A stretch of 64,000 bases of DNA from Oxyruncus cristatus (Eukaryota; Chordata; Aves; Passeriformes; Cotingidae): positions 124,001 through 188,000 of the forward strand of contig VXAY01006167.1 in assembly GCA_013399855.1 (NCBI GenBank). The letters are read 5' to 3'. Below, piece after piece: positions 14,067 to 58,063 of this stretch. The stretch's first letter is position 1, and each line of letters starts with the position of its first letter. The notes beneath the pieces were generated by a model. That model had not been told where the DNA came from. It did no database searches and saw nothing but the letters and a program-made list of their open reading frames with translations. Made by a program: the position numbers and the translations under genes.

Positions 14067-14071
14067 CTATC

Positions 14072-14109
14072 TAAAAACAGATGTTTCTTGATGCATGTTA
14101 AGTTTTTCC
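14072..14109 (-). repeat. Right arm of inverted repeat pair
   Basis: Reverse-complement partner of 13422-13458, about 35 of 38 positions matching, including a perfect 21-bp core at 14079-14099. If transcribed together, the two arms could form a long stem closing a loop of about 610 nt. Confidence 0.9.
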
Positions 14110-24901: not shown

Positions 24902-25260
24902 GACCTGTGTGTTGGCTTCACGCCAAGACATTGAGGGGCCCGCGCAGAGATTCCCCCCCGAGGCTGATGCATGTTTCGNNNNNNNNNNNNNNNNNNNNNN
25001 NNNNNNNNNNNNNNNNNNNNNNNNNNNNNNNNNNNNNNNNNNNNNNNNNNNNNNNNNNNNNNNNNNNNNNNNNNNNNNNNNNNNNNNNNNNNNNNNNNNN
25101 NNNNNNNNNNNNNNNNNNNNNNNNNNNNNNNNNNNNNNNNNNNNNNNNNNNNNNNNNNNNNNNNNNNNNNNNNNNNNNNNNNNNNNNNNNACCTGGAAAG
25201 GGTGTGGGGTTGCAGACATTGAGGGGCCCTCCCAGAGATTCTGCAACGAGGCTGATGCAC
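24902..25260. repeat. GC-rich minisatellite spanning an assembly gap
   Basis: Two copies of one unit flank the gap. The left copy (24902-24972) runs from acctg through agacattgaggggccc and cagagatt to gaggctgatgca. The right copy (25191-25260) has the same landmarks in the same order with scattered changes. The unit is at least 70 bp, and its internal landmarks are 288 bp apart in the assembly. The 212 N between them therefore probably hide more copies, and the copy number is unknown. Frames that read through here are artefacts of the repeat and the gap. Confidence 0.85.
24979..25190. other. Assembly gap (212 N) inside the minisatellite
   Basis: A run of 212 N bounded on both sides by copies of the same GC-rich unit. 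This is a typical collapse or break of a tandem array in short-read assembly. Confidence 0.99.
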
Positions 25261-28200
25261 GGTGTCCTGTCTGTCCAAGGAGCAGGGATGCAGGGAGGAG
25301 GGTGTGCTCTTCAGGCTGGAGTCAGCAGACTCTCATAGCAGTCGGAGGGGTGGCAGGGACCGCTGTCCACGCGGTGGGGCTGGCCCATCAGCTCTCCCAG
25401 AAGATGACAATCTTTTGCCTGGGTGTGCCAAGTTGGGGATGACGCAGCCAGATGTCTCACAGAGCTTGGGAAGAGGGCTGCACTCATGCAGCTATACAGC
25501 TGTCAGACCAGAGAGCACTCAAGCCCAGCCAGCTGAAGCTCCAGTGAGCGACCATGGTCTGTGCCCGGCCCAGAGTGCCCAGAAAGGCTTAGTGATGGAA
25601 ATTAACAGCTTCCATTATAGCACTCTAACTACCCCATGTAGGCAAGCCCTCAGAAGCCACATTAACCCGAGTTCAGGCCATAAATTGAACTCTCTGGCAA
25701 AGGTACTCCTTAACTAAATGCAGAAAATCTCTGTGATGAGCAGTAACGGTGCATATAAAATAAAATAACAGCAGGACTGGGGAATAGCAATGGCACATCT
25801 TTCCTTCCAAATTGAATTGTTCACTTCACTGTGAGAAGGAATAATTATCATGTTTATTGCGTTTGGCTCAATTAGGCTGGAATCTTAGGCCAGGAACCTT
25901 TCTTTTTACATTTCTGTAAATGTTGTCCATGTATGGCTGTGTCAGCATTGATTTTGTTGTCATGAAGGTACCACCGCTGCCTGAATGAACTGGAATATGC
26001 AAAACTGAACTAATTCTTAAAGTGTCTATTTTTCTAGCTTTAATCAGCTAAAATTTCTAGTAAACTGAAGAGGAGCAAGCAAGCCTCTTGTGTTATTTCT
26101 GTAGAGTTCTGCTCTTGAATGTGCTAGGGACAGCAGGATGGGCTGAAACTATTTACTTTTGTACATGGTGCACATATAACTCATAGAACCCATCACGAAA
26201 AGATGGATTAAGACCATATACGCTGAGAGGTTACAAAAGGTGCATGACTTCCATCAGGTGACATATATCTGTGTAAGGCTGGCATAAAGTATAGTGAGAC
26301 CAGACGAGAAGACAGGGAAGCTTGTGCTAGACTCCAGCACGATAAGCAGAAGATAAATACCCAACATGGAGAGGACAGGTACATACAGTTTAGTTAGCAG
26401 CAAGTCTTCTTGGGACTGTGTGCAGCAGTCTCCTACTACTTTCATCTACTGTACATTTACATCCTGAAAGAGGGGTACTCTCAAAGGCATCTGTCTTCAA
26501 GCTCCACTTGGTAGAAATGTCTCATAGCAGGAGAAGGCCAGGATCAAATGTGTAAGGGGAGGAACAACTCAACCACTCCTACAGTTCTAGGATGTCCTGG
26601 AGGGAGAGAAGGTATGTTTGTGTGAGATCACTCAGGAGTCTCTTAATTGTGTATATTTGAATGCTGTGAATATTGTATCAGAATGACCCAGCAAATTATC
26701 AGTTCCACTTCTGCATTAACCTCTTTTCAGCTGAGGAGGTATCTAATTCCATGGTCACTACCAGTGATTGGTAAGGGTGAATAGAAGAATTTAAATCTGC
26801 ATTTCTAGAAACTGATCTAGGCCCATTTCCTTTGATCCTTTGAAATTTCCTTTTCTATACGAACAGACAGAGAAGCATAAAAAAGTACAGTTTATAAACG
26901 TGTAAATAATGCGAGATGAAACGTGAGGGACAATATGTATCTTTAGCAGTAGAAAGAAATTCTGGTTAAAGGCAAACTCTACCTGAGTTAGAGAGATCAG
27001 GTCTTTGGTAGAGAAGTTTGTCATGGGTAGATTAGGGAAAACATGATACGTGCTACTTTTCAAAATTTTCATTATTATGCTTGATATCAGGAAACACTTC
27101 TACATCCAGCCAAAAAATTGAACTAAAGTCACAGCTGAAATATATGCAGGACAGGTTTTGGAATGGAAAAAACAGTCTAGAAATAGACTGGTTTGTCTGT
27201 TGATTGCAATAAGAAAAGGCACTTGAATAAAACTTTGATATTCCACTGTGAGAAGTTGAGGGGAATGAGAATGCATGACAGAGGAAGGGCATGTAAAGAA
27301 AACTGTCAGGTTTCAAATTCATTAGAGCTGTGGCGTAAGATGACCATAATGTCTGCCTGTTAGCTCAATATGTCATAGTGTAGAGAGAGATGTAGCACAG
27401 AGAGATGTAGCACAGAGAAGAGCTGTATTAGAAAGACAGTGTTTGGAGTTTCTTCCTCAGTTCATGCCAAACACCACAAAATGCTTTATGATATCCCAGC
27501 ACATAGATTTCACATCTAGCCTGAACTGTATGGGGAAAAAAACCCAACAAAACAACACTCCAGATGCAGTGCCCTAGGTATGTATAAGACACAGGATGAT
27601 TACATACAACATGCCTAGGTCAGTATCTAAGCTCTTCCATCTGTCTGGTTTGTTCAAACAGCACTTTCAAGAAAGTTAAAGTCTCTTAAATCTGCTGTTA
27701 ACAAAAAAAATAAAATAAAGGGCAATACCAAATCCCACTTTCCACTACTGATGCACTAATTCGGTGTCCAGCTTTGCTTTCAGTTGCCTCAGGGCCTAGT
27801 GGTTTTCCCTGCATCATCATGTGGGATCGCACACTGAGCACAACGCGAGCTGCTTCTCCGATTCTGAGAGCTGCCATTTTAAAGAAGACCGTGGTGAATT
27901 CCTTTGCGCTGGTATGGAGGTACGTGCTAAGCAGGGACCAGTCGCCTCAAGAAGCGAGCAGAAGACTCTCCACTGCACTGTATTGTTCCGTAGCACAGAG
28001 CTTGGTGAAGTTGAAAGGCAGAGCAATTCCGTGCCATCTTCAGTGCTGGCATGTAGGGAGTTCTTGGCAAATCAGATGGTGGGTCATAAATTCTCCTTCA
28101 CTAGTTTGGGGGCTTGATTATTCTTTTGTGCTCTGCTGGAAACATTACTTAGGAGAATTGGGGCATTTTAATTTGGCTGTGTTACCACTTTATTAATATT

Positions 28201-31200
28201 TGAACATCTCACTGTTTTCGGTCTTGGCACAACGGGATCCACAAACAGAGGCTAAAAGAGAAAATGTTCCCCTCCCTGATACTGGATTCCTGCCCTTTTA
28301 TTTTTAATTACTTTGAATTATTTCTGGAACTTTTTATATCATTTTGAGAATACAAATTAAGTTTTGACCGTAAGAAAGAATACCATAGAAAGCAAGCAAA
28401 TGTGACCTTACATGTTCATCCAGAGACTGCATCAAACAAGCAAGGGACAGACACTTGCCAATCTATGCATTATATTCTGGCATAACAATGATCCATTAGT
28501 CTGAGCAAGGTCTATGTGAACTGTATGCACATTTGGCTTAACCCACTCAGTTTATTTAGCCTCTGGTGTGCTCTGGATTAAAGCAGGCAGTCATTAGAGA
28601 ACAGTATTTCTTCCACAAGTGCTGTTTTTCATCATTTGAGAGAAGTGACAGAGCTTTTCAAAAGCCTTTGGTATTTAAGGACAAATACTCCCTTCTTGTA
28701 AACGTTCATCTGGGATTCAATAGGTTTTAACCATTAGTGCTTCTAAAAGCAGAAGTTGATCCTGAGGCTAAAAGAAGACCAGAATCACAGAAGATTGTGC
28801 GCCTTTAGCTGGGGATTCAGCACTTGACTGCAGTGTGTTTCTGTTTCCCAGCAGCTTGCTATGAAAGGCTGAATCCCCAAAGCTCAACCCCCTGACATTT
28901 TCTGAAGCATACCTTGAGATCCCAAAATAAAAGTTACCTCACATAGCAGGATAATTCTGTCCAGTGGATTTCCAGGAGGATTCAGTCAACAAACCAGGAT
29001 TTAGAAGGAAAATGCACCCCAGAGTATCGAATAATTATCTGTCAAATGTAGGGGACCTGATTCCTAGTGGCACTGCAACATTTTTACACCAGTTGCGTAA
29101 AGATCTTTAGAACAGCCTTTTAAGGCCCATTTTAGTCCCCTTCAGGCATTCAGTCTTCAGACCACTTTCCAGGAGAAGAGGGAACTCACTTTGTGTTCCA
29201 GGGCAAGACAGCATCTATTTTCTTAAAATCACATTGGTGTATTTTTAGCAAATTCACTGGGAGAACTATTAGTCATTACTGTAAAGGCATTTAAATACAA
29301 CATGTATCCTTCAGTTAACAAAAAATCCCCTATGGGTTAAACCCTGAATCTAACTAAAATCTGTGTAAATCCTCACATTTTCTTACACTATCCTTAGCTG
29401 GAGAAATTGATTTCTTCTGATGGACTTCGCTGTCTTAGACAGTAGTTGAATTAACAATTTTTTAATGTGTCAAATTTAGTCCAGATATGGTTCTGCTATC
29501 CTGAACTACCAGTTCTGTTGCTGTCCAACATGTATAAAGCTTCATAGATTAACTTAGAAGGCTTCAATTTGCTTTTATATTTTAGTTTGAATTTCAGTCA
29601 TTTGCCATTAATTGCTTTGTGACATGCACCAAACCTATCCACTTTTGAATTTATATACTTTGGAGATTCAGATATATAAATAATAATGTCCAATAAAAGC
29701 AGGAAAGAATTTAAACCAGCTGCTTCCCAGGATGTAGCTGATTTTATGCTTTCCTTCCACTTTTGGAGCACAAAGTCTATATACAGTGTACACCATAGTT
29801 TACTGCGGGAGGATAAAGGCAGGATAAGCATTCCTGAAAACCACTGCTTGCCTACACACAACATTGTCACAGTTCAGTGTTATTCCTTCCTCCTTTCAGC
29901 CGGACCCTAGGGCTGTGCTTTCTGATCGTAAAAAACAACCAGGTGCGGCTTCTGTCTCCATCCCTGAGGAATTATGTATTATGCATGATTGTATCTAAAC
30001 AGGCTGTTTAAAACTCGTTTGTTCATGGTATCAGAGCTTAAAACATTATAATGGGAAAAGACCCAATGGATCTTATTAAGATATTACTTCATATTGATTT
30101 GGTGAAATGTGTTCATTCAATATTAATGGCTCACATGCAAAGATATTTATTGATATAAACCAGAGATGGATATAAGAGAGAATACATGTAGACATTAAAA
30201 AAAGAGATTTAACAAAAGGAACAATTTCCAGAAGTTAAAAGTTTTCCCATTACTCCAAAACACAGACCCAGATTAATGCATCCTAAATTCTACTGGGCAT
30301 AGGATGAATATTTTTGATAGGCTTTGAGAGGAACCAGACTTAGAGCAAGTGACAGCACTTCCTGTACTGGGAAAGCAGTGGACAGGTAGCCTGGCTGAAT
30401 CTGCACAACGACCATATCTCTTTAACTACAGAGACCCTTTGGCAAGGTATGGTTTTGTTTGTTTGTTTTAAAAAACAATTTGAAAGTGTGCAGAGGGGCT
30501 AGTGAGGACCAACAGGTAGGAGGTTAAGTGAACTGCACCAGCAGCAGCCTCCCCAAATAGAGAGCAGGGGCAGTGAAGGGAATGCTGCCATCAACACCTT
30601 GGCTTGTCTCAGCTACTGCCCTCGATAAATCTGTGCGAGACCTCATGTGATAAATGACACTGAGAACCTATAATGGAATCCAGGAGCAAAGAACTTGGTA
30701 CAGAGGATAAAATGCATGGCTATCCTGTCAGAGGTGTCCTGCCTAACTTCAGTCTGTTCATGGAGTCGAAGGTACTGGCAGAGGGCACCTCTTCCTGCCC
30801 TATTTCTGCATAGCTCACCTTGTCTGCCTCCATTCCTCCCAAGTCTGGGAAAGGGTTCGGTGCTTGCAGGTATGTAGAATGAATTCAGGCCACTACGCTC
30901 TCATTGCCTGCAGGGCTAAAAGGCATTTTGAAATGCTATGTCTGCTGTGGTGTATCAAAGACAGAAGAACAACAAATATATCTCCTGGCTGCTCCTGCTG
31001 TTTCCTGTTCCTCAACATTCAGAAATGGATGGGAATCTGTCTGGAGCAGGCTCTGCTAGCTAACAGACCTCCATGAACTAACAGGTTTGTTTTGTGCACA
31101 TTCCCCAAGCTGAGAGATCTTTTTCTCCTTCTTCCCCAGGTTACTTCCAGCTATCTGCCTGACCTCACCTCTGTCTGCTCCCAGTGAGATCAGCCCTACA

Positions 31201-34200
31201 ACATTGAAGCCTGGGATCCAGCAAGCATTAGCAGCAGTTGGTCACAGCTAAGAAGGACTCGTAGGCGGTGCTGTTGTGCTTTATTTCCTCTGCTGTGCAC
31301 TGAACAGAAAGGGAGCCAGACCCCTGCTACCATCAGGAGAGACAACCTATCAGTCTTTTCAACCTGCTCAGTCCCTTCAGAGGGAAAGGGATGGGGCTGC
31401 TGAAAGGCAATGTCATTATTCCTGCCATGTCAGCAGCACTTCATACATCAGAGGCAGCTGACTGATCGCCAAGGAGAGTAGTAACTTTATTAACCACTTC
31501 TGTTGTGTTGAGCAGCTTTAGTAGAAATCTGAATAACCCCCTCCTCCCCTGGGTTTATTGGACGTGGTTTGTTTTGCAAGTGGGAAAACAATCGTGAGTT
31601 TCATGCCTGGATGAGCTAACGTGTTTACACAACACTGCTGACGCAGCAGAAACAGGATACAATATGTGTCAAATATGGCTTCGGCTGCAGGCAAAATAAC
31701 TGTTGAGCTGAAAGGCAGTGCTTAGCACAGGGCTCCTTGTGCCAGAGGCAGCTGCTGGGTACATGTGAGGGAGAGGGAAAGGGAGCAGGTCTCAGTGTTC
31801 CAATCCCCTGTTGCAGAGCAGTTCCCAGAATGAGGAAAAGTTTTCCAAAGTTGCTACTACTCTTCTAATACTTATACTCATCAATCAGTTTGTTTAAAGA
31901 GAAACTTGAATGGTGCATAGACCTCAGCTTCACCCTCAGGATCTGACTCAAAGCCATCCGAAGCCCGTGGGAGACTTTTCACTGACTTTGATGTGTGGCT
32001 CATTTCTTATTTTAGGTTGTAGGGAGATAGATTTTCACAGCCTAATTTCTGCATCAGGATATCTGCACAGCAAGGAGAGAGGGAGATTTGCTTTTTCTGA
32101 CACGAAATATCACCAACCACAGAAAGATGAGCATTTGAGATGATTGGCTTAAAAGAGCTATCCTATAATGACAGCACAATTATAAGCCTGTGGGGAAAAT
32201 TTGTGTGCTTTTGTATGAAAAGGAGCAAAGAAGAACACAAAAAGGTTTTACTGAGTTACAGCGCCAGGGTTTCAGCTACCAGTTCTGCTGGAAAGCCAAT
32301 AAGAGGGTTTAACTAAAGATATTTTCATCATCATCAAGCCCATATACAAAATGGGTAGTTGTGCAAGAGCAGGGCAGGAGGCAGAATGGAAAAAGAGAAG
32401 GGGTTGCAATACCAGGGCAACCTGCTGCAAACAAGAATTGCCACAGAAGGGGGCAAGACCAGCGAGAGTAGAGGCTTTCTGAACCGAGAAGGGTGGTCTG
32501 GTGCTCTCTAAATAAATGAAGATTTTAAAGAACTAAAAGAAAAGAAAAAAAGAGAGCGTGAAATCAGCTGCCAAGGAGTGCTGGGGCCAGAAAAAGCAAC
32601 AAAGCCCTATTTTTAATATAACTTTTTTTCTGCCAGTAAAAAATCAAATGATAAAATAGGCTAGAGAAAGGAAGCAATTGGGAATGGCTGAAGAGGATTC
32701 CCAGCTGTGCTTGCAATCAGTGCAATTCATGACTCACAACATGCTGGCCACATCACTTCCCAGGAGCAACATATTCTCATGAACAAGCAAAACAAGTGGG
32801 AGACAATCTTTAAAGGCTTTTGGGTTCATTCATGGCTTAGTTGTGAAATCACCCATGAAGCAGCTTTCTGGCTTTGAGGGTCAGGGTAATTTGAGGATTG
32901 GTCAACTTTCCTTTTCTTTCCTCTTCAACTGCAGCCCCATCCACCAGCCTATGGCAGCACAGCTGAGGACCTCCATTCTTTTACTTCTTCTGACCAATAT
33001 GAAGATCTGGAAATGAAACGCCTTTATTGGCTTTTGAGTAGTCCTTGTCCTTCCAGTTTCCCATAAGGACCTTCTGCTACCCAAAAAGAGCGAAAAAAGC
33101 ATCTGAAAATAATATTTATAAGTATGTGAAACCAAATATCTCAGAATCGACTGCTTGTATATAGGTCTTATTAGTTCTCACCTGGCTAGCACATAAATCA
33201 TCTGATTCAAGTAGTAACACTGCATGTCCCTTGAAATCTCAGCTTCAATTCAAATGAATCAGACTTCTGCTTTTACTAACTAATAATATTCTAAAATAGA
33301 ATTGTGCACTTGCTCTATCACACAGTGGAATGTTTAGCAATATATATAATTAACACATAGCTACACTGCTAAAATCAAAAGTCCCTAATAGTCCTGCCCT
33401 CTTATGGGACATTGTCTTTGGGGTTGTGCTGGACCTCATCTCAGAGTTCTAGCAAGTGAAGTCTTCCAGTTGAATTCTAGATAAAAACAAGTGTGTGAAA
33501 CTCATGGGTTTTTTTTTCTCTTTTCATTTAGTGTCTAGTTTTCAAGGAGGCACATAATGTCCAATCACTGGGAAATTCAGAGTGTAGCATGTCAGTCAAC
33601 AAGCCATAAGCTTTAACATTTGATTTAAAGTGGCATCCTAAAAAGTGGGAATCAGGGGAATACAATAGCACTGGTTTACCCTTGCAAAGGACAGTTTCAC
33701 CACAAATAAGTCACATCTTCAAGATGTAGGCCTTTGCTTGACAGAACCCCTCCATCCCTCCTAGGAAGTAAAAGGCCAGAGCTTGATCCAAATAACAACA
33801 ACAACAAACCAACAAAAAACCCCAGTAGTTTTTCTGTTGGTGAGAGATTTCATTAAAAAATCCATGAAGTATTGACATATCTGTTGCTTCTTCTCTTTGA
33901 AATTCTTGCTAGACAAGATTTGACTGTACTTGTTTAGTCCAGCTGGCAGAGGCTGCAGGATTGGCTACCTGAAATAACTCTCACAGCAGCATTTATCCCT
34001 GCACAGTTCGGAAATCTAGGGAAACTGCAAATTACAGTATTAAAATGCTGAGCCAGAAGAGAAACAGGGAAATAACGTTTCAATTTTCATCATGAGAAAG
34101 GGGATGTCTCAGCCTAACAATATTTATGAGCTGGTAAAAAACTGTTCATGCCACAGTGGTTGTATGTTCCTTAAATGTCAAGTCTCAATCAATAACCTCT

Positions 34201-34761
34201 CTGAAATCTGACCCTGTTGGGCATGGTGTAGGAGAATTGGACGCTCTCCAGGCTATTGGTTGAAAGGCAAGAAACAGCAAGGAACTGATGAGAAGCTATC
34301 AATAAAACCCCAGTATTGTTTTGAGTTCAATTTCAAGTAATTGCCAGACATCCGAGATTGAGTCTGACAGACATGAAGAGGGCTAATGTTGGTTCCTGGT
34401 AATGAAAAGTAGGTTTCTTGTTCAAAATAGCACAATGGGACCTAATAGTGAAATGGCTTCTCCTTTGAAAAACAAGTTGCTGTATGAGAATAGAAGTCAG
34501 CGAAGCCTATGTTTTTATGGATTTGTGCCCTGTGTCCTTACAGCTTTCTCCTGCGGAAACACCTTTGTCCTTCCCTCTCCTCCCCTGCTACCCCAGCAAC
34601 TCCAATTTCTCCCTCATGTCCTCTGTTCACTGCTTAAAGCAGCATGTGCCCCCCATTTTTTACTCCAGAATTCACCAAAAATTCCAGATTGGGGGGGATT
34701 TCCCCTTTTTCCTTTTTTTATGCCTTCTCTTGCTTAATGACAGAAATTATGCTGGTACAAA
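25261..34761. other. Long non-coding stretch, no gene recognised
   Basis: No gene is recognised. The longest frames are 25262-25717 plus (151 codons), which starts at the edge of the GC-rich minisatellite, and 27774-28196 plus (140 codons). Neither has motifs, and the second is overlapped by frames on both strands. A 15-bp unit (agagagatgtagcac) is duplicated in tandem at 27384-27413. An A/C-only tract lies at 33797-33825. Confidence 0.5.
27384..27413. repeat. Two tandem copies of a 15-bp unit
   Basis: agagagatgtagcac occurs twice back to back without change. This looks like a small slippage or duplication event. Confidence 0.9.
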
Positions 34762-34765
34762 ATAT
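34762..34765. repeat. Target-site duplication, left copy (ATAT)
   Basis: ATAT directly precedes the TGATGCC terminus of the LTR and is repeated directly after the other terminus at 35329-35332. Five- or six-base duplications do not fit at this site. AT-rich context makes a 4-bp match weak by itself, but its exact position at both termini supports it. Confidence 0.75.
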
Positions 34766-35328
34766 TGATGCCTGCGAGCACCTGGACTTAAAAAAACTCC
34801 AGAGCAGTTAATTGGGGTGAGATAAGGAAAGGATTTACTGTGCTAAGGCAAATGGTTATTACAAGATGCGCACGCAGAATACAGCTGTGTTACACCTTTT
34901 ATAATACTAATTGACCAATCCTAAAATGTGTCCGCTTCTTAACTTTTGCTCTGGTCCACCCCTTGACCCTCCTCCAAGAATTGAGTCTGGGGGCATTTTG
35001 GGACCACCCCTTCATCATCTTCATCTTCTTCAGAGCACAAAGTGCATACAGTTACCTAGTCTTTGACCCTGTTTTGTTGTCCAGGCCCTAATCCTGGTGT
35101 TCCCAAACAGTTGAGGCCTTGCCTTGACATGAGACTAAACATCTTCTACTGACTTCAGGGGTAGATTTGATATGGGGAGCATAGAATGGGGTAAAAGGGT
35201 TAGGAATGTACTACGGGGTAGGGGAACGAGGGCTGCTGCTTTTTTAAAACTACTTCTACTGCTTATAAAACTTATAAAGCTTACAAGAATTAGAAAACTA
35301 AAAAAAGCTGTTAGGGCTTAAGGCATCA
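34766..35328 (-). mobile_element. Solo LTR of an endogenous retrovirus
   Basis: This is a 563-bp solo LTR read on the minus strand. It begins TGATGCC and ends GGCATCA, giving canonical TG...CA ends inside a perfect 7-bp terminal inverted repeat, and it is flanked by a 4-bp ATAT duplication. Promoter parts lie in the right order on the minus strand: an inverted CCAAT box (GATTGGTCAA, complement of 34911-34920), a TATA box (TATAAAAGG, complement of 34895-34903), and an AGTAAA polyadenylation-like signal (complement of 34834-34839) about 60 bp further on. No gag, pol or env sequence lies on either side, so the internal part was lost by LTR-LTR recombination. A 4-bp duplication is usual for gammaretrovirus-like ERVs, whereas ERVL and ERVK usually make 5 and 6. 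The family is not identified. Confidence 0.85.
34895..34903 (-). promoter_or_regulatory. LTR TATA box
   Basis: TATAAAAGG on the minus strand, about 10 bp downstream of an inverted CCAAT box. It marks the U3 end of the solo LTR, so any transcript would start roughly 25-30 bp further on and run toward lower coordinates. Whether it is active is unknown. Confidence 0.65.
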
Positions 35329-35332
35329 ATAT
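35329..35332. repeat. Target-site duplication, right copy (ATAT)
   Basis: ATAT directly follows the GGCATCA terminus of the LTR on the plus strand and matches 34762-34765. Confidence 0.75.
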
Positions 35333-36079
35333 GCTGTCTCAATTGTTTTTCAAATGAATTCTCTGCAAAAGTGCCAGCTCTCTTCACAAAATTGGGGTTT
35401 ACTTGACACCCTAAGTTAGAGCAAAGGTCTAAATGATACATTTTGCCTCTCCACTGTAGGCAGGTTAAGTGCACATAGGGAATTACAGTAGCAAGATTGA
35501 GAAAGGGTTGCTTGTTAAGCTGCTCTTAACATAATTATCTGTGATCATGTGTTGGAACCCCCTTTTGATATTATTTAACATGCTCTGCAAAATAATTCGT
35601 CACAAGGTTCTTCAGTGATGCATAATTCAGGAAACAAATCCTTTAAAGAAATGTCTTCCCCCCCTTCTCATACTAGCTAGCTAGCTAGGAGCTTGCCAGA
35701 ACACAAACTTCTGGCCGAAATTGAGCATATAATAGCACCAAAATCATTGAAGAAAATTGCAGACTTCAGGAGGCTTTCACTTCCCACACAGAGCTGCAGA
35801 ACAGTTCTTTCAACTGAGTTCTCTTGTACTCTATAGCATTTCAGGAGGAATACTCAGAGTCAGTGGTGCCATCAGGCTCAATCCTGAGGCTGCATCCAGA
35901 CTAAGTGTTCAAATTGCCCAAAAGAGCGGCTGAAACTACAGAGACAGTGCTCTTACTCTGTTGCTCAGTTACATCTTGAGCAGTAAATAGAAACTTGCTG
36001 CCATTTTTTCATTTCCTTAACCAAAGCCTCATGGAGGCAGGTAATAATATAAAATTAAAGATGTATTTGGGATCTGTTG

Positions 36080-36166
36080 GTGTGGTTTGGGGTTTTTTGT
36101 TTGGTGTGGGGTTTTTTTGTTGTTGTTTTCTTTGTTGTTTGTTTTTGGTTTTTTGGTTTTTTTTTC
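36080..36166. repeat. G/T-only low-complexity tract (87 bp)
   Basis: Almost pure G and T on the plus strand, with G runs of up to four separated by T runs of up to nine. It may be prone to unusual DNA structure, but the G runs are too irregular for a confident quadruplex call. A similar tract of about 50 bp lies 1 kb to the right. Confidence 0.85.
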
Positions 36167-37087
36167 CATTTTGCCCTCTTTGGGAGGATTTTTCTTAGCT
36201 TTATTCCATGGCTTGCCCTCTGCCTTGGCTGTCAACCAGAGAGGACATACACTGACTAAAGCAAAGGTTTGTGATTTACGAAAGTGCATACTGAGTCTCT
36301 GGCATGAAATGGTTCATTTGCAGGTGAATTTTCCTGCCTTTTGCTAAATATTCAGACAATTTTTTTTAGAAAGCATTTTATAAAGCTTCACTATGGAACA
36401 GAAAACCAAGCCTCACTGGACCTACCTGGTGATTAGTCCATCAATAGGACTGCTGATACTACAATAATGTGACTTGGATTTCCAAATCATCTCTCTAACT
36501 TTCTGCAGGTCACTGCACATGCCTCTCCTCACACTCCCAGAATTCCTGGTCTTTTTTCTCTTCCTCCACATACATACAACTCATTTTGAGTTCTTTGTAA
36601 AAAAAAAAAAATTCCTTTGTTTCCATATTTCAGCTGTATTTAGGAGAATTTTAAAACTTGGATTTTTTTTCCTCTTATGGCCAACACATTTTATTGCGTT
36701 TTAAGACACGGGGCAGGAGTCACACAAAGTGGGAAAATGCAATCTGTACCCTCTTTCTGGCAACCAAGCTTTACCACTCCAATAACTAAGCATTCTTCTT
36801 CATCTCTCTGCTCAGGTCTTATATTTGCTGTAGTCAAACACAGGCCTGAGTGTGAATAGGTGCAAATCTCAACATAAGTAGTGCGTAATATTATTTATAA
36901 GCTCTCAGACCAGAAGTCCTGTTAATGTGAGATCTAAATAAAATTTATTCAGGATCTCCTAGTGACCTTGCAACTGAAGCTCCATAACCTGCTGTCATTA
37001 TATTTCCTTTTGCCTGTTAGAGTTCACCTCTTTTGATGGGGGCAGGAGTGGAAGATTCTGAGATTCTGCTATTGCTCTTGATGTGCT

Positions 37088-37138
37088 TTATTTTTTGTTT
37101 TTTTGGGGTTTTTTTTGTTTGGTTTTTTTTTTTTTTTT
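37088..37138. repeat. G/T-only low-complexity tract ending in poly-T
   Basis: T-rich with interspersed G, ending in 16 T (37123-37138). It lies about 120 bp beyond the 3' end of the RTE-like element. No evidence ties the two together. Confidence 0.75.
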
Positions 37139-37261
37139 AATGCTTTCATAAGCTTGATACTAGAGATTCTAGTTCCAGTCTTTCTCTTGACATGAATGTG
37201 GAAATTGCTGTGCTAAAATTCATGGTTAAAAATTCAAGCAACTGCTTCAAGTTGCTTCCTT

Positions 37262-38376
37262 CATGATCATGCTGTTCTCATCATGGCTAGGCCTTGAGAA
37301 TGAAGATTCGAGAAGGACTCTACCCACACTTGCTACAAGCACGTTGATGGCTACGGAGGCGAATGCGAGATAGACAAGTCCGGTTGCAAAAGGCACAGCG
37401 GAAAGTCTCCTTAGGTGGTGTTGGCAAGACTCGGTTCTTTCTGCATTGTCTTTTCTCCTCAGAAATGGTTCTGCGTGTGATCTCAAAGGAGGCAGCAGCA
37501 TTATAGATGGTGTGTCTCCATGCCTTCCAATTGGAGGCCAGAGTAGCCCAATGCTGGCGGTCGATATGGCCGAGGCTGAGATGTTGTTTCAGGGAGTCCT
37601 TGTATCTCCCCTTCGGGGCTCCTCTCTTGCAGCAGCCAGTGGCGAGTTCGCCATAGAGCACAGTCTTGGGGAGGCAGCAGTCCTCCATCCTGGAGATGTG
37701 CCCTGCCCAACGCAGCTGTGATCTCAGCAGCATGGCCTCAGTACTCGTGACTGCTGCCTGTTCCAGAACAGACACATTGGACACTTTGTCAGTCCAGTGG
37801 ATGTTGAGGACTGAGCAGAGACAACGCTGATGGAAGTGTTCTAAGAGTCCCAAGCGGTGGCCGTAGATGACCCATGATTCAGACCCGTATAAAAGAGTAG
37901 ACAAAACAATGGCTCTGTAAACACTGATCTTTGTGCTTTTCTTCAGGTGTTTATTACACCAAACTCTTTTACGGAGTCTCCCGAAAGCTCTATATGCCTT
38001 TGCTAACCTGTTGTCTATCTCTTTGCCAATTTTACCGTCCGAGGAGATGATGCTTCCCAAATAAGTAAACTGCTGGACTGACTTGAGCTCTGATACACCA
38101 ATGATGATATGGGGATGATGGAAAACTTCCTGAGGTGCAGGTTGGTAGAAACCTTCTGTCTTCTTCAGGCTGACTTCCAGCCCAAAAAGCTCAGCAGCGT
38201 CTGCAAAGCAGGATGTTAAACGCTGCAGAGCTGCTTCTGTGTGGGCAACAAGGGCGGCATCGTCAGCAAAAAGCAGCTCATGGACAAGATGATTTAAAGT
38301 CGGAGTGTGGGCCTTCAGTCGCCTTGGGTTGAACAGGCTTCCATCGGTACAATATTGGATGTAGATACTGTTTTTT
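37262..38376 (-). mobile_element. 5'-truncated RTE-like non-LTR retrotransposon
   Basis: This is the insertion that carries the reverse transcriptase segment described in the next entry. On the minus strand it starts abruptly inside the RT domain near 38376, runs through the end of the ORF (TAG at 37320-37322) and a 3' tail of about 60 bp rich in ATGATGA and CATGATCATGA words, and ends near 37262. A short 3' tail with ATG/TGA repeats and no poly-A is usual for RTE-clade elements and unlike CR1, whose octamer tail is absent. 5' truncation fits target-primed reverse transcription. Boundaries are estimates, and I could not find a clear target-site duplication. Confidence 0.8.
37320..38376 (-). 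CDS. Partial reverse transcriptase of an RTE-like LINE (C-terminal part)
   Basis: About 350 codons of element-derived frame remain open without a stop or frameshift. The nominal open frame extends to an ATG at 38526-38528, but its first 50 or so residues are host flank and that start is not real. Using residue numbers of that 402-residue frame: the catalytic FADD box is at 87-90 (LLFADDAALVAHTE), LFGLEVSLKKTE at 114-125, FTYLGSII at 154-161, then LLYGSESW, a thumb-like region with LRWAGHISRMED, and a C2HC knuckle at the end (C378, C381, H394, C398). The endonuclease domain and the earlier RT motifs, including the first catalytic aspartate, are missing, so the copy cannot move by itself. In the family, this enzyme copies element RNA into DNA at a nicked target. 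The block order and final zinc knuckle match RTE-like proteins. The intact frame suggests a fairly recent insertion or a capable source element. Confidence 0.85.
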
Positions 38377-41300
38377 TCATCGAGGTCTGTTCTAAAACAT
38401 ATTAAATTGTACAGCCTGAAGCCTTTTAAAATCTTTATAATAGCAAAGAGTAACTTGATCAAGGGAAGATTTATGAAGTGAAAGTAACTCCAACCATGAC
38501 AGAAAAACAGATTTTCTTTGTGCAACATTCTCAGTGCTTGTCATTCTCAGAGGAAAGTGCCCACTCAGTGCCTCCCTTGTAACAACCCAGTTAAGTGCAT
38601 TCTTGTCTTTGGGTTGAGGTTACTCCCTGTGCTCTGGTTACACACTCTCTGCAGCACTACGTAAGACCAGGACGCTGCATTACAATGGAAATTAGCTTAA
38701 TAGAATTAGAGAGCCCTATCCAGCCAGGAAGTGCCAGTTTCAGGCTGGGCTGTAGCATGTTACAGAGAGGGTCAAGATCACCCTTGCTTCTTGGTAATGG
38801 TATCTGCCTTCACTCTGTACCAACACCAATGACCTTGGGGGAAGAGCACTACTATGTGAATATTTCCCTCGAGTATTTATTATAAGGATGATCTAAGTTG
38901 GATCCATTTGGGTGGTGTGAATTCTGCTTTTTAAATGCTTATTCGAAAGAAATTCAAATAATTTGAACAATATGAGTCTGAGAAACTGGCTTTGGGTGTC
39001 ACTCATCTGTATTACCAACATTCCCAAAGTTGGTCACTTCAGGAAGTATTATGATGTTTAAAAATGTTTATTTTTGGATGAAAATCAAGAGGTCAAAGAT
39101 AAGAAGCTAGTGGTAATAAGAACCATCCTCCACTTTTGAACTCCATTAATGGTTTGATTTGCACTCAGTTAAGTTTCAATCAGATCTGGAGATAAGAGTT
39201 CTTCATTCTCAGCCCCACAGGCTGTGAGGGAGCCATGATAAAATAATTGTCTCTATGGTATATCATTTACTGATAGCTGCCACTCTTCCTGCAGTTTATA
39301 TGGTCTGCATAGATGTAATGGGAAAGACAGTGTCACTAGTTTGCTTTCTTTCTCCATCAAAAATACTTGCAGAGCAGTTCTGGATACAGCCTGCCACCAA
39401 ATTTCTTTTGTTTCTTCAGAATAGGGCAATTTTGGTGCACACTGAAAGCAAATTAGACATTGATCTTTGAGCTGCAGGGAAATGTGATCTGTGGCAAGGG
39501 CAATTCAGCCACTTGAGGCTCTGCTTCATGGGGTGCTTTCTAACTGGGCCCTGAAAATCCTTACCACCATCACACTGTACTTAAAAAGGTCTGCTCCCAG
39601 CATTTGTTGGTGAGGATTCTGTCCCATCAGCAAAGGTCAAAGCAGACTGAGTGTAAAAACAATGACCTAGATAGCAGAGATGACCTTTTTATTTGGTTTT
39701 GTTCAAACTGTGTTTCTTCTCTATTTCTTTTTTTTTTTTTTTCTTCCACTGAGGGATCTGAAAGTGGATATAAGTAGGACCGAGGAAAGATGTCCCTTCT
39801 CTGTTACACAAACACAGTCCATACAGTATGCCAGCCTAACTTAACTTTCTCTGGGAAGAGAATGGAAACAAGAAAGCAGTATTAAAGATTATCTGTATCC
39901 AGGAATGCTTATCCCAAAACTTAGAGCTTGTATTTCCATGAAGCTAATCTATCCTGATAATAGCCATGTGGAGCAACAAATTGATTTCTTGCCCAAGTAT
40001 ATAGAATGCATTCAATCTAACCACCATCCAGCAAAAGGGGTTCAAATTGATTTGCTTGGTTGCATTGTTTATCATCCATTTCCCCATAACTCCCTGTCCC
40101 CAAGAGCATTCATTCCACCTTGACCCTCTCCTTTTCCTTACACTTAAATGAAATGTTGGCATTAGCCCTGAAAATAGTGAGAAGATTTTCATGGTTCTTT
40201 TCCTATGAAGACACCCAAACTGGTGTCAGGAAACCCCATGAACTAGCCTTTCCTGAGGATGCTCTGGCACAGTTACTGTATCATGTTTGACAAAAACTCT
40301 GGGACTGATGACAGGCTTCAAAGAACATTTCCTTTAATTCCTCCCCTATTACCATGGAACTTCCCAGCAGGCCCAGAGACCTTTGCAGAGCTTCTGGAAT
40401 AATAAAGGAGATGAGCTTAGTTTAATAAAGTGTGCTTATGGGAAGTCACTTTCCTGTTTTACTACATTTTCTAGTATCCTTCAAAGAAGAGATGAAGAAA
40501 CCCTTGAACTTCCACTGAGATGTTATCTCCTGTGGGCGGGGGTTGCTGTTGCTTTAGGAGCAATCCTCCCGTGTGCAGCTGTCTGTGGTGCCCAGCCTGA
40601 ACCATCCATTGATCCAGCCAGACCTCTGACAATACATTTCCCCAACAAAAGCAGAGCCTTGCATCTATGGTGATTTTCTTTGATCAACGGTTGTTGATCT
40701 CATTACTTTGAAGACTTGCCTTCTCGGGATTGGTGAGTCAGTAATTTGAGTATACTTTATAATCCAATCTAATAGATGTCAATTACGAAAAATAAGAAAT
40801 GAGAAAGGAAGCAAGCTTGCTAGACTCATTTCTCTTTGGATTTGTCATGAGCTGGTCTTCTAAAGAATGCAGAGAAATATTTCCTTCCAGCCAACTTTGA
40901 ATACATTTGTGGATACAACTCAGGTTTCAGAAATTCAATCTCTGTCAGCTTCCTACCCTCCTGATGGGGTGGTTTTGTTGTTCTAATTGTTTGGGGTTTT
41001 TTTAAACTTTGCTTCACAGATCTAAAAGTTTAGGTTATATTAAGAGTCTCATCGGTCAGAGGTGCAAAAAAGAATAAACTTGAATAATCTCTTTGCAAAT
41101 TTTAAAAGATCCATAGGATCTACAGCAAAAAGAATGTTGCTTTTTGACACCATATAAATACCTAGCTGCATAGGAAGACAAGTATACTGTAAGCATTGAT
41201 AACATGTAGCATTGAAGCAGTGGGGTTTCGGTAAGTCTCCATTTTATTTACCTGTCTCCATGTGGGTACTTGCACGTAGAAATGGGAGAAAGAGTATGTA

Positions 41301-44300
41301 CCCTCCCTTCCTCTTACTTGCAACATGGAATTAAGTTAGTCTCACAAATGGGTGTTTTTTCCAGGTCAGACCCTGGATGTTACCATTACTTCTGTGAGTT
41401 GTTTTGTGGAGTTCTCTTCCTCGAGGAATTGCTGAACATAGTGCCCTAATATAAAGGTTTATGTTTAACACTGGGGCTATTTGCAAGGCTATTTGTAGAA
41501 AGACATGTGGTGTGGGATCAGTCATCATATATCATAGCCTCAGAGTGTCATTAAAACTCAACCTTTTCGTAGTACGCTGTCGTGAACATTTATGATCAGG
41601 CTATAACAAGAGAAGGGAGATAATGAAGCTGAAGGTATTTAGGCTGGTGCTATCTACTTAGACATCATGCAAAATGAGACATCATCTCGTTTTACTTCCA
41701 AAACGAGAATGAAAACAGAGCAGATTCAATACCTGACCTTCAGTTAAGGTGCAGGTTTGGGGGCGAGAGGGGTTGAAAAGGCAGAAAGCAAATTGCAGAA
41801 GCAGATAAGCCCTAACCTGGTCTCAGAGCAGCTTTTGTTCTTGATGTAAATTAAATATCACAACATCCTAAGGATCTTACTGCAGTATCAAAGTGTTATT
41901 CAGATTTTCAGCTTCACAACTCTCATATGTGTGACTGGGATATTAGCGTAGTATTGTACTGTGCACTGTTAAAATGCTGTCCTCCACATCAAGAAACACC
42001 CAGCCTACAGTTCAAACTGAAATCACAGTAGGACACATTATCTTGGGAGAAAGCTCCTACTCTCTGTGCTTGAATGGTAGTCTTCACGAGTTATTTGCTC
42101 CAAAATCCTGTTGGACGAGGCAGCTTGTTACTTATTATCCTAGAAACTGTCAAACTGCAACTCAATGAACCTCCTGAGAAACAGTTTGAGAAACAACTCT
42201 TTTATTAAACCACAATAGTTTTTTCCATGGGTATCACTGATAGCTGGATTTTTTTTAAAAATAATGAAGATTAGCTGCACCTGAGCTCCACAACTTTAGT
42301 TTTACCTCAACTGTAGGTTGATGTGATAGTATGAACTACTGTGAGCACAAGAAACTTGGATGTAAGGGTGTGAGGAAATGTTCAAATTAGATTCAATCAG
42401 AACTTTGAATTATCACTAACATAGCAAATAATTTTATATTTGCTGTGAAAATTTTAATAAAACTGTGATGACTTTTACGCTGAGAGATAATTTTTTTGTC
42501 TTCACGAGAATGCAGTTGCAATGTGATTTACTTCACCCAATGGCAACTTAAAAGAAAATTCAGCATCTGACCTTGCTTGAAGCACAGAAGCATTAGTAAC
42601 TTCCCTCTCCTGGTCTTCAGCTTGCATATCCTGGTGCACTGCTGAGGAACTATTAGGAATTATGGTGTATGCCACAAATAAATATGTGCTCATTTGTTTA
42701 ATTCAGTATATGAATGTGTTTACATTCAGATGAAGAGGAGGTATAGCAAGGTTAAGCATTTTTTTTTTTAATTATTTTATTAAATCCCATTGGTTGCTCT
42801 GACTTCTACCCTGTCAACTGCAGCTCATGAGGCTGTCAGTTTCCTCTGATCTAGGCTCATTTGTACTGAATTACAGAACTGTAATTCACACCACTGTTTA
42901 TATCATATGGGCATGCTGGTCACATTTCACCCTTTCTAGGGAATATTAAATATTACAAACCAGGAAATTATGGATTATGCTTTTGTTACATGGGTATCTG
43001 GTTTTTCTTATGCCTTCTTCAGTGAAAAATAAGTACATGGGTGATTGGTCTATATTGCACTTATAATCAAAAGCAGAAATTGTGCCAGGCTAGCATTTAT
43101 TTTCCTTTATTATTTGGTGATTTTTTTTTTTTTTTGATTGGTTGTTTCTGAGACTAGGTTGGGACAGAGAGTTTGTTTATTAGCCTGTGCATGCAAACAA
43201 AGAGAAAATGCTGCTGTTATAGAGTCTAAAACTTGATGTCATTAAGTTATTTCTGTGCAGATGCCCAGTGGTTTACCAGGATCTGTTGGGGTTTGCTGTT
43301 GGTAATGAATATTGTCAGTAGGAGTTTCACCCACAGAAACCCAGTTTAAACACTTGTCAAGTGCAAACATACTGGCTCTTGAAGTGAATGTGGTGAATCT
43401 CCGATTTAGCTGCTCAGCCTTTATCTTGCCCCACCTTCCTAATTCTGGAAAGCAGACACGTTCCTATGTAATATATATATGTGATATATATATTTATCTC
43501 CTGTGTATAGGAGTTCACACGACAGGGCCAACATTTTCAATGCAAAGATACACAAGCACTCTGCTTCCAGGACCTTATAGGTCTAGCACAGAGGTTGTTG
43601 CGAGCTGCATGATGTGGTCATGCCAGCATGTAATCTCTTGGGTGTGCCCCCGCCACGTATGGCTTCTTGATGATGTCTAGGGAGCTTTATTTAAAGAGAA
43701 GACAAAAGAGTTCAAGCTCTTGCTTAAAAAAATGGAAAAATAAATGACATTGTCTGTAAGCTCAATGAGCCATATTTTTGACTTACAAGCAATGAATTAA
43801 CTGCTAAATAAATGGGTTGACACAATCAGAATGCAAATTGTAGGGAGAGGAAAGGAGAAGAAGGGGAATAATTTGGAAAACTTTAATTGTTCACAGTAGG
43901 TTAAATTCTTACCCTACGGCACATTGACAATAACCCCTTACAAAGCCTTCTCATAGTAGTCAGTGTGTGTACCACATTAGCATTTGAGTTTGGATCAGGC
44001 ATGCACTTCTGTAGTAAATCTCCTGACTGCCCCCATACCATGCTTTGGTTCTTGCTGTGGAGTGGTCTTGGAGTGTGCAAACTGGATTCCATTTGAATGA
44101 AACTCAATTGCAGTACGTGCTCCAGCAGTGCACTAAGTGTGATCCTACTGTCTGTAGTATTCATATCCTTGGGATCAAACTAAAACTAGTTTAAATTAAA
44201 ACCCACAAAAAAGGCATTTGGTGCAGATATGGGATGCTCAGGACCATTTATTTCACTCTATAGATGCTGTTTTGGCCACAATACTTGTTACTGAACAGCC

Positions 44301-44777
44301 AAGGTGCTTGCTACTACTTTTTCTCTGTTTTCACTCTTCTCAGAGACTGCTTCTCAGGCTCAGAAAGTTCAACGGAACTGAGGTATCTGAAGGGTGTTTC
44401 AGCCAAAGTGAAGCCTGGGTTAGTCCCTATGACCATGCACGCAGTAATTGTTGCATACTCATCAGTGATAATCAGAGAGAACTTAAAATCAGAAGGTGCC
44501 AAAAGGGAGAGCTGAATTGCCAACAAAAGAACACAAATGTCTGAGGGGTTAAATCTGAAGTCATTTTTGCGCCTGAACTTTGCAGACTGGGTTTTCCAGG
44601 CTCGCAGCAACTTTGAGATATAGTTTCCTGAGATGAAAATAAGGCCAGAACAAACATCCAGTGCAATATCTTGTGTCTGGTAGAAGAGGAACAATAAGGA
44701 ATATACACTGTGGTTGTAGCTTCAGAAAATCTGAGACTTCCCGACCTGTAAATTGCACCTACATCATGAATTTTAAC
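38377..44777. other. Non-coding stretch, no gene recognised
   Basis: No gene is recognised. T runs lie at 39728-39742 and 43121-43135, and a TA-dinucleotide palindrome at 43469-43494. Open frames of 100-126 codons (such as 44314-44694 minus, opposed by 44218-44544 plus) overlap each other on both strands and lack motifs. The segment 38690-38870 is repeat-free but otherwise unremarkable. Confidence 0.5.
43469..43494. repeat. TA microsatellite palindrome
   Basis: Two TA-repeat arms separated by gtg. It can fold back on itself. Simple sequence only. Confidence 0.8.
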
Positions 44778-46520
44778 CCATCATGGAACTTTCTTCCAAT
44801 GATTTGTATAATTTCTTTTTGAACTCATTTATGGTTTTGGCCTTGCAAGCACCCTGGGTAATGCGTTCCACAATTTCATTATGCAGTGTGTAAAAAAGTG
44901 CTTCCTTTTGCTTTAAGCCTGTTGCCTGATAATTTCATTTGGTATCTTTACTTCTTGTAGAAGAAGTAGAAAGAGGGAATTGTTCCTTATTTACCTTTCC
45001 CAAGTAGTCGTTAATTTTATAGACTTCTTTTATAGCCTTTTCCAACCTCATGTCTTCTGGTTTGAACAAGAAAATCCTATGCAATTAAAAAAACAAACCC
45101 CCAAACAAATGAAAACCCAACCACACTATCCTTTTTGTTCAAAGTGAGATCTGAAGCAACTACCTTCATGTACTGTTCATTGCTTGGTTGCCTCTGGTTG
45201 TACCAAACTAGAAGCTTTGCTCCAGGATTGCTGTAAACATGCTCCAAGTCCTACCAGAAAGAGTAGGGTCCAACCCGTGACTGATTCTGCAGTCAGCTTT
45301 AGCGCCCGTGTGTGGGAAGGACATCCAGCCCGGGTAACTGAACTAAACCTAGCCTGAAATGATTTCCCTTCAGGAGCAGAGCTCTCAACAGCGATTCCTT
45401 TGATCTGTCAGTGCACCCTTCAGCACCCCATTACTTCCTAATGTAGATGTGACCTTACTCTTCCTATATGGAAGCTTTATCTAAACCCCAGTTATTCCAG
45501 TTGCCTGGTCTGCACTTTGTCTCAGTCTAGTAATTCCTCTTTGTGGTGGAGCACACAAAACATTTATACAGTGTCGTATTGATGCTTTCTCTTTTTTTTC
45601 TCTTGATTTCTTTCCTTCTAATTAATAACAGTTATATGCAGTTTTAACCATTGATAGACACTGAATTGATGTTTCAGAGCCTTGTCCACATGACACAACA
45701 AGTCTTTCCTGAGTGGCTAGGGTTTAATCAGAACACACTGTGTGTATGTGTACACACATAGATGCTAATGCATAGTATTTCACAACTGTCAAAATCAGAT
45801 TTACTTTGCCCTGCTATTTTCCAGTTGCTCAATTTCATGAGATATTTCTGAACTCTTTGTAGACAAATTGCGTTTTTGCTGTCTTGAATTATTTAGTAAC
45901 ATCAACACCCTTCATTATTTACTGAGGTTTTCATCCTATTTTATGAATATAGTTCCAGTACACACCACTGTGTGATTCCACTAGACTTCCCTCCACTGTG
46001 AAAACTGGTCATATATTCCTTCGCTTCGTATCTTTTACTAAGTTACCATTCCACATGAGAATCTTATCTTTTGATGTAAGACTTCATTAAAGATTTTTTG
46101 GATATGCGAGTAAACTTTATCAGTGACATTGTCCTTCTCTATCTGTTCACACTTTAAGACCTTCATAGGTGGTGTGACTTCCTTCCTCAGGCTTTGTTGA
46201 CCATGCCACTATATTGAATTTATCTAGGTGTAAGCTGAATACTTCCTTATTCACAGTCATAAGTAATTTATTTGGTGTGGAGCTCAGACAAATTGTCTCT
46301 AGTTTCCTGGACCACCTCCCATCCAGAGTCTCTTTTTAAATAGTGGCATCAGTTCTGCCATCTCCATCTCTGATATCGAGACCGGTTTTGAATATTTGAG
46401 TTTCTTCAGAACTTTTGGTAACACCACATGAATGTAGGAATTAACTATTATTTTGGTGATGTATTTTAAAACCTCTCCTACTGACATTTTGATATTAAAC
46501 AGTTGCTCGGACTCATTCCT
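44778..46520 (-). mobile_element. Ancient CR1 LINE, RT domain to ORF2 C-terminus
   Basis: A decayed CR1 copy lies on the minus strand. From high to low coordinates it holds: the region before RT (mirroring KEL and the steps around it, 46300-46520); RT motif A near 46060-46130, reading VYSHIQKIFNEVLHQK where intact CR1 has VYLDFQKAFDKVPHQR; a motif C remnant near 45900, now DVTK* in place of DDTKL; and the ORF2 C-terminus at 44778-45080, with KEVYKINDYLGKVNKEQF and LWNALP in place of YKIMNGMEKVNRELLF and LWNSLP. The catalytic aspartate of motif A is changed to His (LDFQKAF to SHIQKIF). Segment 45085-45770 aligns poorly and may hold later insertions, including an A/C-only tract. At about 1.7 kb this is the largest relic in the window. 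It is of the old amniote CR1 type and is dead. Confidence 0.8.
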
Positions 46521-49476
46521 TCAGGTTTCACTGTAGAAATTCTCTAAGCTTTCCTGTAATGAAATCTGATACAGAGTGTTAATTTGGGTTCTTGTGATGC
46601 TGGCTAAAATCCTCTATGTTTTAATTCACAAAGATGTCTTACATTTCCATCAATAAAAAATCCTTGTCATTCCCAGTGAAATGTTATGGATCATCAGGAG
46701 TTAAAGAAGTTGCAGAAGGAACAGCCCTATTAGTTCAATTGTTTATTCTCCTTGTCTGCTCTGAGATCACTGTGGGGACTATACCAGATAAAGTTATCTG
46801 TGGAAACTGGGCATTCTCTAATCTCTCCAACGCCCATCAGTGAAATACCAAGATATCTAGGAGACATTTAAAAGTAGAGATAAGTTAATATTTTCTTTTC
46901 TGCCTCACTGCTTTTGCCATTTCTTTTATAGAAATCTTGTTGGAACTTTTATAACTGACAGTATATAAGAAAAATTTTTAAAAAATCCCAATCAGTCAAG
47001 AAGGATTAATTGACCTTTTACGGTTCCTTCACGTAAGACCGTGGCTATCTACTCACAGGACTCACAAGCTGGTTGTTTTCAACTTCTATCAATGATTCTG
47101 GGCTCCAGTTTCTCATGTTGTAGATCTTTAATCATGAGTTACCAGCCAGATGGAACTGCAGGAGAAGGAAAGTTCATACATGCCCTGTGCTCCAGTTAGT
47201 CTCTGTGAGAAGTATACAGAAGCTCCACTCTTTCCATCTAATGCTGGCAGAGAAATTACCAACGGCTTATCACCCCAGCAAGTTTTAAGGTAAGCTTAGC
47301 AGCTAAGTGTTGATACTGGAATATTTGTCATTAGCACTCAGGGGAACCATTCACACCTCGGATTTGTATAAACTTTACATCTTAATGTGAAAAACCATAT
47401 GCATCCAACACATGTAAAGCCGCATTTGAATTCAAATGAGATTAAGAAGTGGTTCCCTGACAGTCTTGCTTATGGAAGTCTGTACTAATGCCTTGCTGAT
47501 GATTTTTTTTCCTGGTCCCTAGTGATACTAAATGCCATTTACTGTGAACTGCTGAACCTGCAATGACAAAAGCAACAGCAAACCTTGGCTGCAATGGTAG
47601 GGGCCACTTCTGGATATCGTGAATTGCTATTCCCATAGATTTTTGCCACTGTTATTTCTTAGGGTTAAGTTCAACAAATGGCCCTTTGTGATACTGATAT
47701 GAATCAATGGAGACACATGTAAGTGGGAGATGACAATAATTGGAGAACCTTGATGACTAAGGAGCTGCTAGCTCTGGGACTCCCAAATAACAACCCAGCC
47801 ATCTGTCCAGCCATTCAGCTGCCTGCTGTGAAGGCTCTGCATTTAAAAATTGTGTTATCAACTTTACAATAAAGAAGCAGCCACTTGAGCATCAGCTTGC
47901 AGAGCAGACAGGACTAAGGGATCCATTATTTAAATATAACCCTTTCAGCTAGGAGTAGGAGGAAAAAGGACAAGATCTCTCCCTTAACACTCAATCAGCC
48001 CAGCATCAAGAAAAGAACAGAGAGAGACAGCTGGAATAGTTAATTCTAGTGCTTCACGTTGCTGGAGGAAAGTCGGATTTGGTGGTGGTGTGTCCTTTCC
48101 ATCTGTTCCCCCCTACCTTCTCCTTCCAGAGGAACTGAAGAAAGTATTGTTTCATTCAAAAGCCAGACAAGACGAAAGCACTGCCAAAACCCATACCTTA
48201 AAAAAAATAGACCACTGAGTGTTTGGGTAGGTGATAAAATAGAAATAAATTGATGGGAATAAAACAACCTCTGGAAGTAGTTAGATAAGCAAAGGTCTAT
48301 GTTGGCCTAAAGAACAACGGTATATGGTTTTGTGCTAAAATGGATGCTTTCCTCCTAGGTAAGCTGATAGAGCAATTTAGGACAGCTTTTTTCTCTTGAT
48401 AAGTTGGAAAAGTTGACATGCAATTGCCAGAGAGAATAAATTCCTCCAGCACCAATTTTACAAGCAGAAAATTTATTTACTGTGTGGAAGATTCACTGGA
48501 CATTTGGTGAAGCTGCCATAAGAAAGCAGCACCCTTCTGCTGTTGTGAATACATGATCTGCTCAATGCAGATAATCCAAGCTCCCTTATTTCTGGCATTT
48601 AGCCTTAATAATAATTTAGATCTTCCTGAGCAGACACTGTAAATGTTGTCAGACTGAAGCAGCCTACCAAAGTAATTTTTCTTGCTATTCTGGGAGCTAG
48701 GTATGGGTTACCATCTTCACTCATACAAACTAATTATTAGCCATTAAGTAGTGTATTTGTAATGAAAGAATAACTGAAATGCTAGTATTGTAGGACTTGG
48801 CAAGTTTCAGGGAATTGTGCAGTAACATACTGTGGGGAAAAGCTGTGAGGTAGGAGATATGCCCATGTGATTTCGGTGATCCAGCATTTATTATTATACA
48901 CAAAACAAAACATGTGTGTATGTACACGTCTACCGTCAAAATGCTGTTTTTAATGGCCAAACAAAACATTATCTATGAATGTGCTCTTCTCATTCTTGAG
49001 GAAAAAAAAGCTTTTTTTTTTTCTCTCATAAATAATTCGTACAATTTATTATTAAAACGTATATTTATTCACTGTCTATGTATTATGCTCATGTGCTGTC
49101 CTATAACTGGTTTAGGGCATGGCTTTACTTCTGTTAAAATTAATAACAAAATCTCATTGTCCTCTATTGTAGTAATGAGCTTACAGCTTTTTAGTGGGCT
49201 CTCAAGGTAGTGCACAACTCTTTGTTGTGCAGTGCATACCAAAAAGATAGTCAACAGCTAAACTTAATGTCAAGGCTTAGACCCTTAGATATGCCTGACT
49301 TGCATAGGAACCACACTTTGCTTTAAGTGCACCTATTTGCTCACTGTGTATCTGTCCCTCTGTGACAGCATCAAGTGAAACAGTAGTTTGGGACCTCTCA
49401 AAGCACTACACTTGCCAATGGAAGGGACAGCACCTCAAATGCTGTTCTGGAACCTTTACTTCATAGAGAACTGGGT

Positions 49477-49518
49477 ACAATCCAAACCTTCCTGGGCACA
49501 GTCCAAACCTTCCTGGGC
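49477..49518. repeat. Two tandem copies of a 21-bp unit
   Basis: The unit (ending tccaaaccttcctgggc) occurs twice with one base different. Its length is a multiple of three, so it also duplicates seven codons in a short open frame, but that frame shows no other sign of coding. Confidence 0.9.
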
Positions 49519-58040: not shown

Positions 58041-58063
58041 TTTTTTTTTTTTTTTTTTTTTTT
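58041..58063. repeat. Poly-T homopolymer (23 bp)
   Basis: The longest homopolymer in the window. On the minus strand it would be a poly-A run, but no AATAAA lies at the proper distance before it and no parent sequence is recognised. Confidence 0.95.

Follow-up and report, generated by a model that had tools for sequence, protein, structure and literature searches.

Several groups of tropical birds, as well as parasitic worms, harbour the retrotransposon AviRTE (Suh et al., 2016; PMC4844689). Seven bird clades and filarial nematodes are given there as its hosts, horizontal transfer between birds and filarial nematodes is described, and the suboscine lineages include manakin, tyrant flycatcher and antbird; for the outgroup genomes, nothing resembling AviRTE was reported. 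According to the same source, the 5′ UTR measures ∼800 bp and the 3′ UTR ∼40 bp, and the consensuses of different birds diverge by up to 0.151 (Table 1, PMC4844689). Tests on avian and nematode data sets are reported to show that AviRTE is not contamination in them (PMC6542046). The family, its transfer and the suboscine host group are already published (PMC4844689; see also PMC8665684 and PMC6542046), and the locus presented here is one more copy.

The window, meaning the whole 64-kb stretch of DNA that was analysed, very probably carries a 5′-truncated copy of the non-LTR retrotransposon AviRTE in the genome of a suboscine passerine, inserted by target-primed reverse transcription. The first-pass annotation had placed the element at 37262–38376, close to the span of 37279–38386 obtained here. 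The features of the locus are as follows.

37279–38386, minus strand: putative 5′-truncated AviRTE LINE copy, comprising the 3′ UTR and the 3′ part of the RT ORF (homology, primer sites, tree, direct repeat)
38387–38393, minus strand: target-site duplication AGAACAG on the element's 5′ side (repeat search)
37323–38386, minus strand: open coding part, ∼355 codons without stop or frameshift (ORF list, homology, translation)
38316–38337, minus strand: site like AviRTE primer 4F, 19/22 (primer match)
38290–38310, plus strand: site like AviRTE primer 3R, 16/21 (primer match)
38259–38270, minus strand: FADD box of reverse transcriptase (sequence; RVT_1 match)
38154–38183, minus strand: GLEVSLKKTE (sequence)
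38046–38069, minus strand: FTYLGSII (sequence)
37872–37895, minus strand: LLYGSESW (sequence)
37335–37397, minus strand: C-terminal C2HC finger, C-x2-C-x12-H-x3-C (sequence; like the ends of many relatives)
37320–37322, minus strand: TAG stop codon of the RT ORF (sequence)
37279–37319, minus strand: 3′ UTR, 41 bp (sequence; compare ∼40 bp in PMC4844689)
37277–37295, plus strand: site like AviRTE primer 4R, 15/19, at the element's 3′ end (primer match)
37272–37278, minus strand: target-site duplication AGAACAG on the element's 3′ side (repeat search)
12220–12298: fragment resembling an avian CR1 3′ end, with octamer (CR1 3′-end probe, E 1.5e-14)

The minus-strand ORF runs from stop to stop over 37320–38540 (406 aa) and is the longest among the ORFs listed for the window, where the runners-up reach 217 aa (partly N) and 197 aa. 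The count of ∼355 open codons agrees with the ∼350 claimed at first, and all four segments that had been read as a minus-strand RT (FADD, GLEVSLKKTE, FTYLGSII and LLYGSESW) were found in the translation. The terminal C2HC knuckle proposed alongside them stood in part: a C2HC motif is present at the C-terminus, with an extra Cys inside it, and its spacing is that of a finger and not of a retroviral-type CCHC knuckle. The C-terminal ends of many relatives carry a motif of the same kind. The match of the ORF to Pfam RVT_1 was weak (E 3.8e-5; 23.9 bits, below the curated cut-off of 29.6), and a search of solved structures with the ORF protein gave 0 matches. The protein search, however, returned relatives with E values down to 4.3e-177, which excludes chance for the RT identity and points to an RT of the RTE type. 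We take these relatives to be RTE elements, following general background and the account in PMC4844689.

Ten AviRTE PCR primers from PMC4844689 were matched to both strands of the window. The 3R, 4F and 4R sites were each the best match of that primer on either strand of the 64 kb, and together they agreed at 50 of 62 bases (81%), on the proper strands and in the proper order and spacing; the next best joint placement, among the 125,800 tried, reached 31/62. The 27 bases between 4F and 3R are the spacing required by the frame LFN-RRL-KA-HTKTLN. The remaining seven primers, which belong to the missing 5′ part, gave no match in the window above 15 of their 18–22 bases. Primer 3R encodes HTKTLN, and the suboscine AviRTE string H[T/S]KTLN is present in 8/9 of the bird proteins spanning the site (the ninth, P0184, having HTETRN). 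The copy in the window reads HTPTLN. The string was found in 0/163 proteins not named as bird, many of them of unnamed source.

The AviRTE match is thus a judgement made on primers, residue string and trees, at a primer identity of 81%, and not on a consensus sequence. All three support the RTE assignment as well as the AviRTE assignment, which had been an inference at first, so that a label given from raw sequence is now confirmed by test; on this comparison the AviRTE identity of the copy appears well supported. A separate RTE lineage, related to AviRTE but outside it, which entered the suboscines by itself, would fit the primer identity of just 81%, and among the matches listed no named nematode or non-suboscine AviRTE anchors the clade. 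We consider this very unlikely: HTKTLN, which comes from the published primer, sets the birds apart from the 163 other proteins, and the divergence of bird AviRTE consensuses among themselves is itself considerable on the published figures (up to 0.151; PMC4844689).

Three protein searches (120 listed of 1246, 1564 and 351 matches, respectively) gave 248 proteins in all. At least 20 of those listed were recognised by name as bird proteins, and they came from 6 species, all manakins, tyrant flycatchers and antbirds: Pseudopipra, Manacus and Corapipo (Pipridae), Myiozetetes and Pitangus (Tyrannidae), and Willisornis (Thamnophilidae). Nematode, parrot, hummingbird, hornbill, trogon, mesite and tinamou copies did not appear by name among the matches listed; the tree therefore holds no non-suboscine AviRTE, and AviRTE is under-represented in these lists. 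In the larger tree (71 rows, the window plus 70 of 178 proteins) the window and 15 suboscine rows formed one group (100/97), and in the smaller tree (32 rows, the window plus 31 proteins, 8 of them bird) the window and the 8 birds did so at 100/100, with the window grouping with Willisornis and Pitangus rows (97/87 and 98/91). Relative to the reported hosts of AviRTE, seven bird clades or filarial nematodes (PMC4844689), the tree sets the copy among the suboscines, which points to a suboscine host. The suboscine AviRTE proteins were also seen to fall into two groups, one of manakins and one of antbirds and flycatchers (P0004, P0062 and P0131 against P0001, P0002 and P0057).

RTE elements of aquatic animals (Penaeus, Narcine, sea slugs, corals, lancelets and fish) share the RT and C-terminal finger layout at ∼50–65% protein identity; they are without the TLN string and fall outside the bird clade. 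BovB, likened here by description only, also belongs to the RTE superfamily and is distantly related to AviRTE according to PMC4844689.

The first-pass annotation had named placement inside a vertically inherited vertebrate LINE clade as the tree that would speak against its proposal, and nothing points to it. Forcing all sampled vertebrates into one clade was rejected (AU p 0.00057, smaller tree), while forcing the birds and a turtle (P0076) into one clade was not (AU p 0.14). With this turtle RTE among the relatives, a vertically inherited sauropsid RTE that some birds retained and others lost draws on the second result. We nevertheless regard vertical inheritance as highly improbable, given that the free tree sets the turtle elsewhere and is 14.3 log units better, that the all-vertebrate clade fails, and that the published outgroup genomes are described as free of any AviRTE resemblance (PMC4844689). 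The high CpG content and open ORF set out below are likewise ill-suited to an insertion of great age, although activity could persist in an old lineage. Horizontal transfer is published for AviRTE (PMC4844689) and is not a result of the window, where the tree alone does not reject the bird-plus-turtle clade.

Target-site duplication together with 5′ truncation is expected of an RTE LINE insertion, and both are present in the copy. The sequence AGAACAG forms a 7-bp direct repeat that abuts the first homologous codon on one side and the 41-bp 3′ UTR on the other. A shared 7-mer or longer arose by chance in 366/20000 random pairs of 21-base zones (1.8%), and the repeat taken alone is moderate evidence for a target duplication; its two copies, moreover, coincide with the junctions expected from homology and from the 3′ UTR length given in PMC4844689. 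The AviRTE 5′ UTR (∼800 bp) and the endonuclease region are absent from the element, a trait of this copy and not of the family. The locus is thus like suboscine AviRTE (PMC4844689) in primer order and spacing, ∼40-bp 3′ UTR, the diagnostic H[T/S]KTLN string (HTPTLN in the window), suboscine relatives and target duplication, and unlike full-length AviRTE in being truncated to 1.1 kb. The duplication is 7 bp long, that of the example given in PMC4844689 13 bp, and the ORF is open throughout, whereas the full-length copies described there all carry frameshifts and stops.

Following known LINE biology, an active AviRTE would have been transcribed into RNA, and its endonuclease-reverse transcriptase would have nicked the target DNA and reverse-transcribed the RNA inwards from the short 3′ UTR, that is, by target-primed reverse transcription. 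An early stop of copying would have left the last 1.1 kb alone inserted, flanked by the 7-bp target duplication. With its promoter, its endonuclease and the greater part of the RT core missing, such a copy was probably dead on arrival, and its ORF would still be open because it has had too little time to decay.

The age of the insertion was considered from its base composition and coding state. The observed/expected CpG ratio of the ORF is 0.49, compared with 0.08 for 2.9 kb of flanking sequence and 0.19 for the whole window; the ORF is also higher in G+C, and its coding origin contributes to the CpG difference. Compared with 15 bird rows, 23/358 residues are private to the window, or 20/355 element codons once the 3 in flank codons are subtracted. 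The private replacement rate drops from 10% in variable columns to 3% in conserved ones, and private changes also fall at strongly conserved columns such as V82, K32 and G346. Under a simple decay model, with the indel rate set to one tenth and the rates being assumptions, the chance of a stop-free ORF is 0.48 at 2%, 0.16 at 5% and 0.11 at 7% divergence, and the joint chance of no stop and no indel is 0.09, 0.002 and 0.0003, respectively. Under this model the open ORF would suit an insertion diverged by a few percent. The end branch of the window (0.13–0.14 replacements per column in both trees) would be long for an open ORF if all changes post-date insertion, which suggests that part of the branch stems from active parents or that the age is underestimated.

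The same ∼355 uninterrupted codons, with a joint decay chance falling to 0.002 at 5%, could be read as a domesticated gene whose ORF is held open by selection for a host function. At 2% divergence, which is near the private load, that chance is 0.09, however, and the private changes reach strongly conserved columns; an ordinary insertion would show the same kind of flanking repeat and truncation, and the copy has no known start codon, promoter or transcript. Domestication therefore seems as improbable to us as vertical inheritance. The preferred reading, an ordinary AviRTE insertion, is consistent with a fairly young copy on the evidence of the open ORF and the CpG ratio of 0.49 against 0.08 in the flanks. 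With its defined ends and target duplication, a copy of this age has a remaining use as a presence/absence marker across suboscine species.

The antbird AviRTE consensus is reported to lie at 0.088–0.090 from those of tinamou, mesite and trogon, against 0.133 from that of manakin (Table 1, PMC4844689), and the window is grouped with a single flycatcher protein and with antbird, away from the manakins (97/87 to 98/91). These figures would allow two AviRTE lineages in suboscines, one of manakin type and one, including the window copy, of antbird/flycatcher type, to have come from more than one entry. We hold this to be unlikely, and a fast-evolving manakin lineage would account for the same numbers.

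The first-pass annotation had argued for late arrival of the element from stop-filled CR1 copies beside it. The open ORF and CpG content are in keeping with a late arrival, but the argument from CR1 neighbours finds no support: the fragment at 12220–12298, 25 kb off, was the only CR1 piece found in the window with a CR1 3′-end probe, and a search of the whole window with four CR1 peptide motifs turned up nothing convincing. Six-frame Pfam scans (stops as X) of 7341–17300, 17301–27260, 27301–37260 and 38397–58316 gave 0 families at E 0.01; short decayed CR1 pieces could escape them. As no CR1 RT was found in these regions, the contrast cannot carry the late-arrival argument, and the high CpG content is the better sign. 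The CR1 fragment at 12220–12298 and the AviRTE clade are the grounds on which the host is taken to be a bird. The claim that the element lacks a CR1 octamer tail held: its 3′ end shows no ATTCTRTG, and the six octamers of the window lie elsewhere. A CR1 insertion was ruled out by this missing octamer and by the different RT.

No second RTE piece was detected in the window by tblastn with 178 relatives (best E outside the element 0.012), and blastn of the element against the window gave chance-length matches only. Pfam indicated no host gene in 7341–37260 (nearly complete) or 38397–58316, and the Rfam and tRNA searches returned 0 matches each. An IMG/VR scan for nucleotide relatives gave 3 pattern matches, 0 of them confirmed. 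A plus-strand open frame of 160 codons without a Pfam family lies at 27714–28196. Runs of N occupy 1443–1484 and 24979–25190 (254 bases in total), and the long ORFs over the second are artefacts. T/G-rich low-complexity runs lie just past the element's 3′ end at 36091–36165 and 37093–37136, and a tandem repeat at 49471–49519 consists of 2.3 copies of a 21-bp unit with 92% matches.
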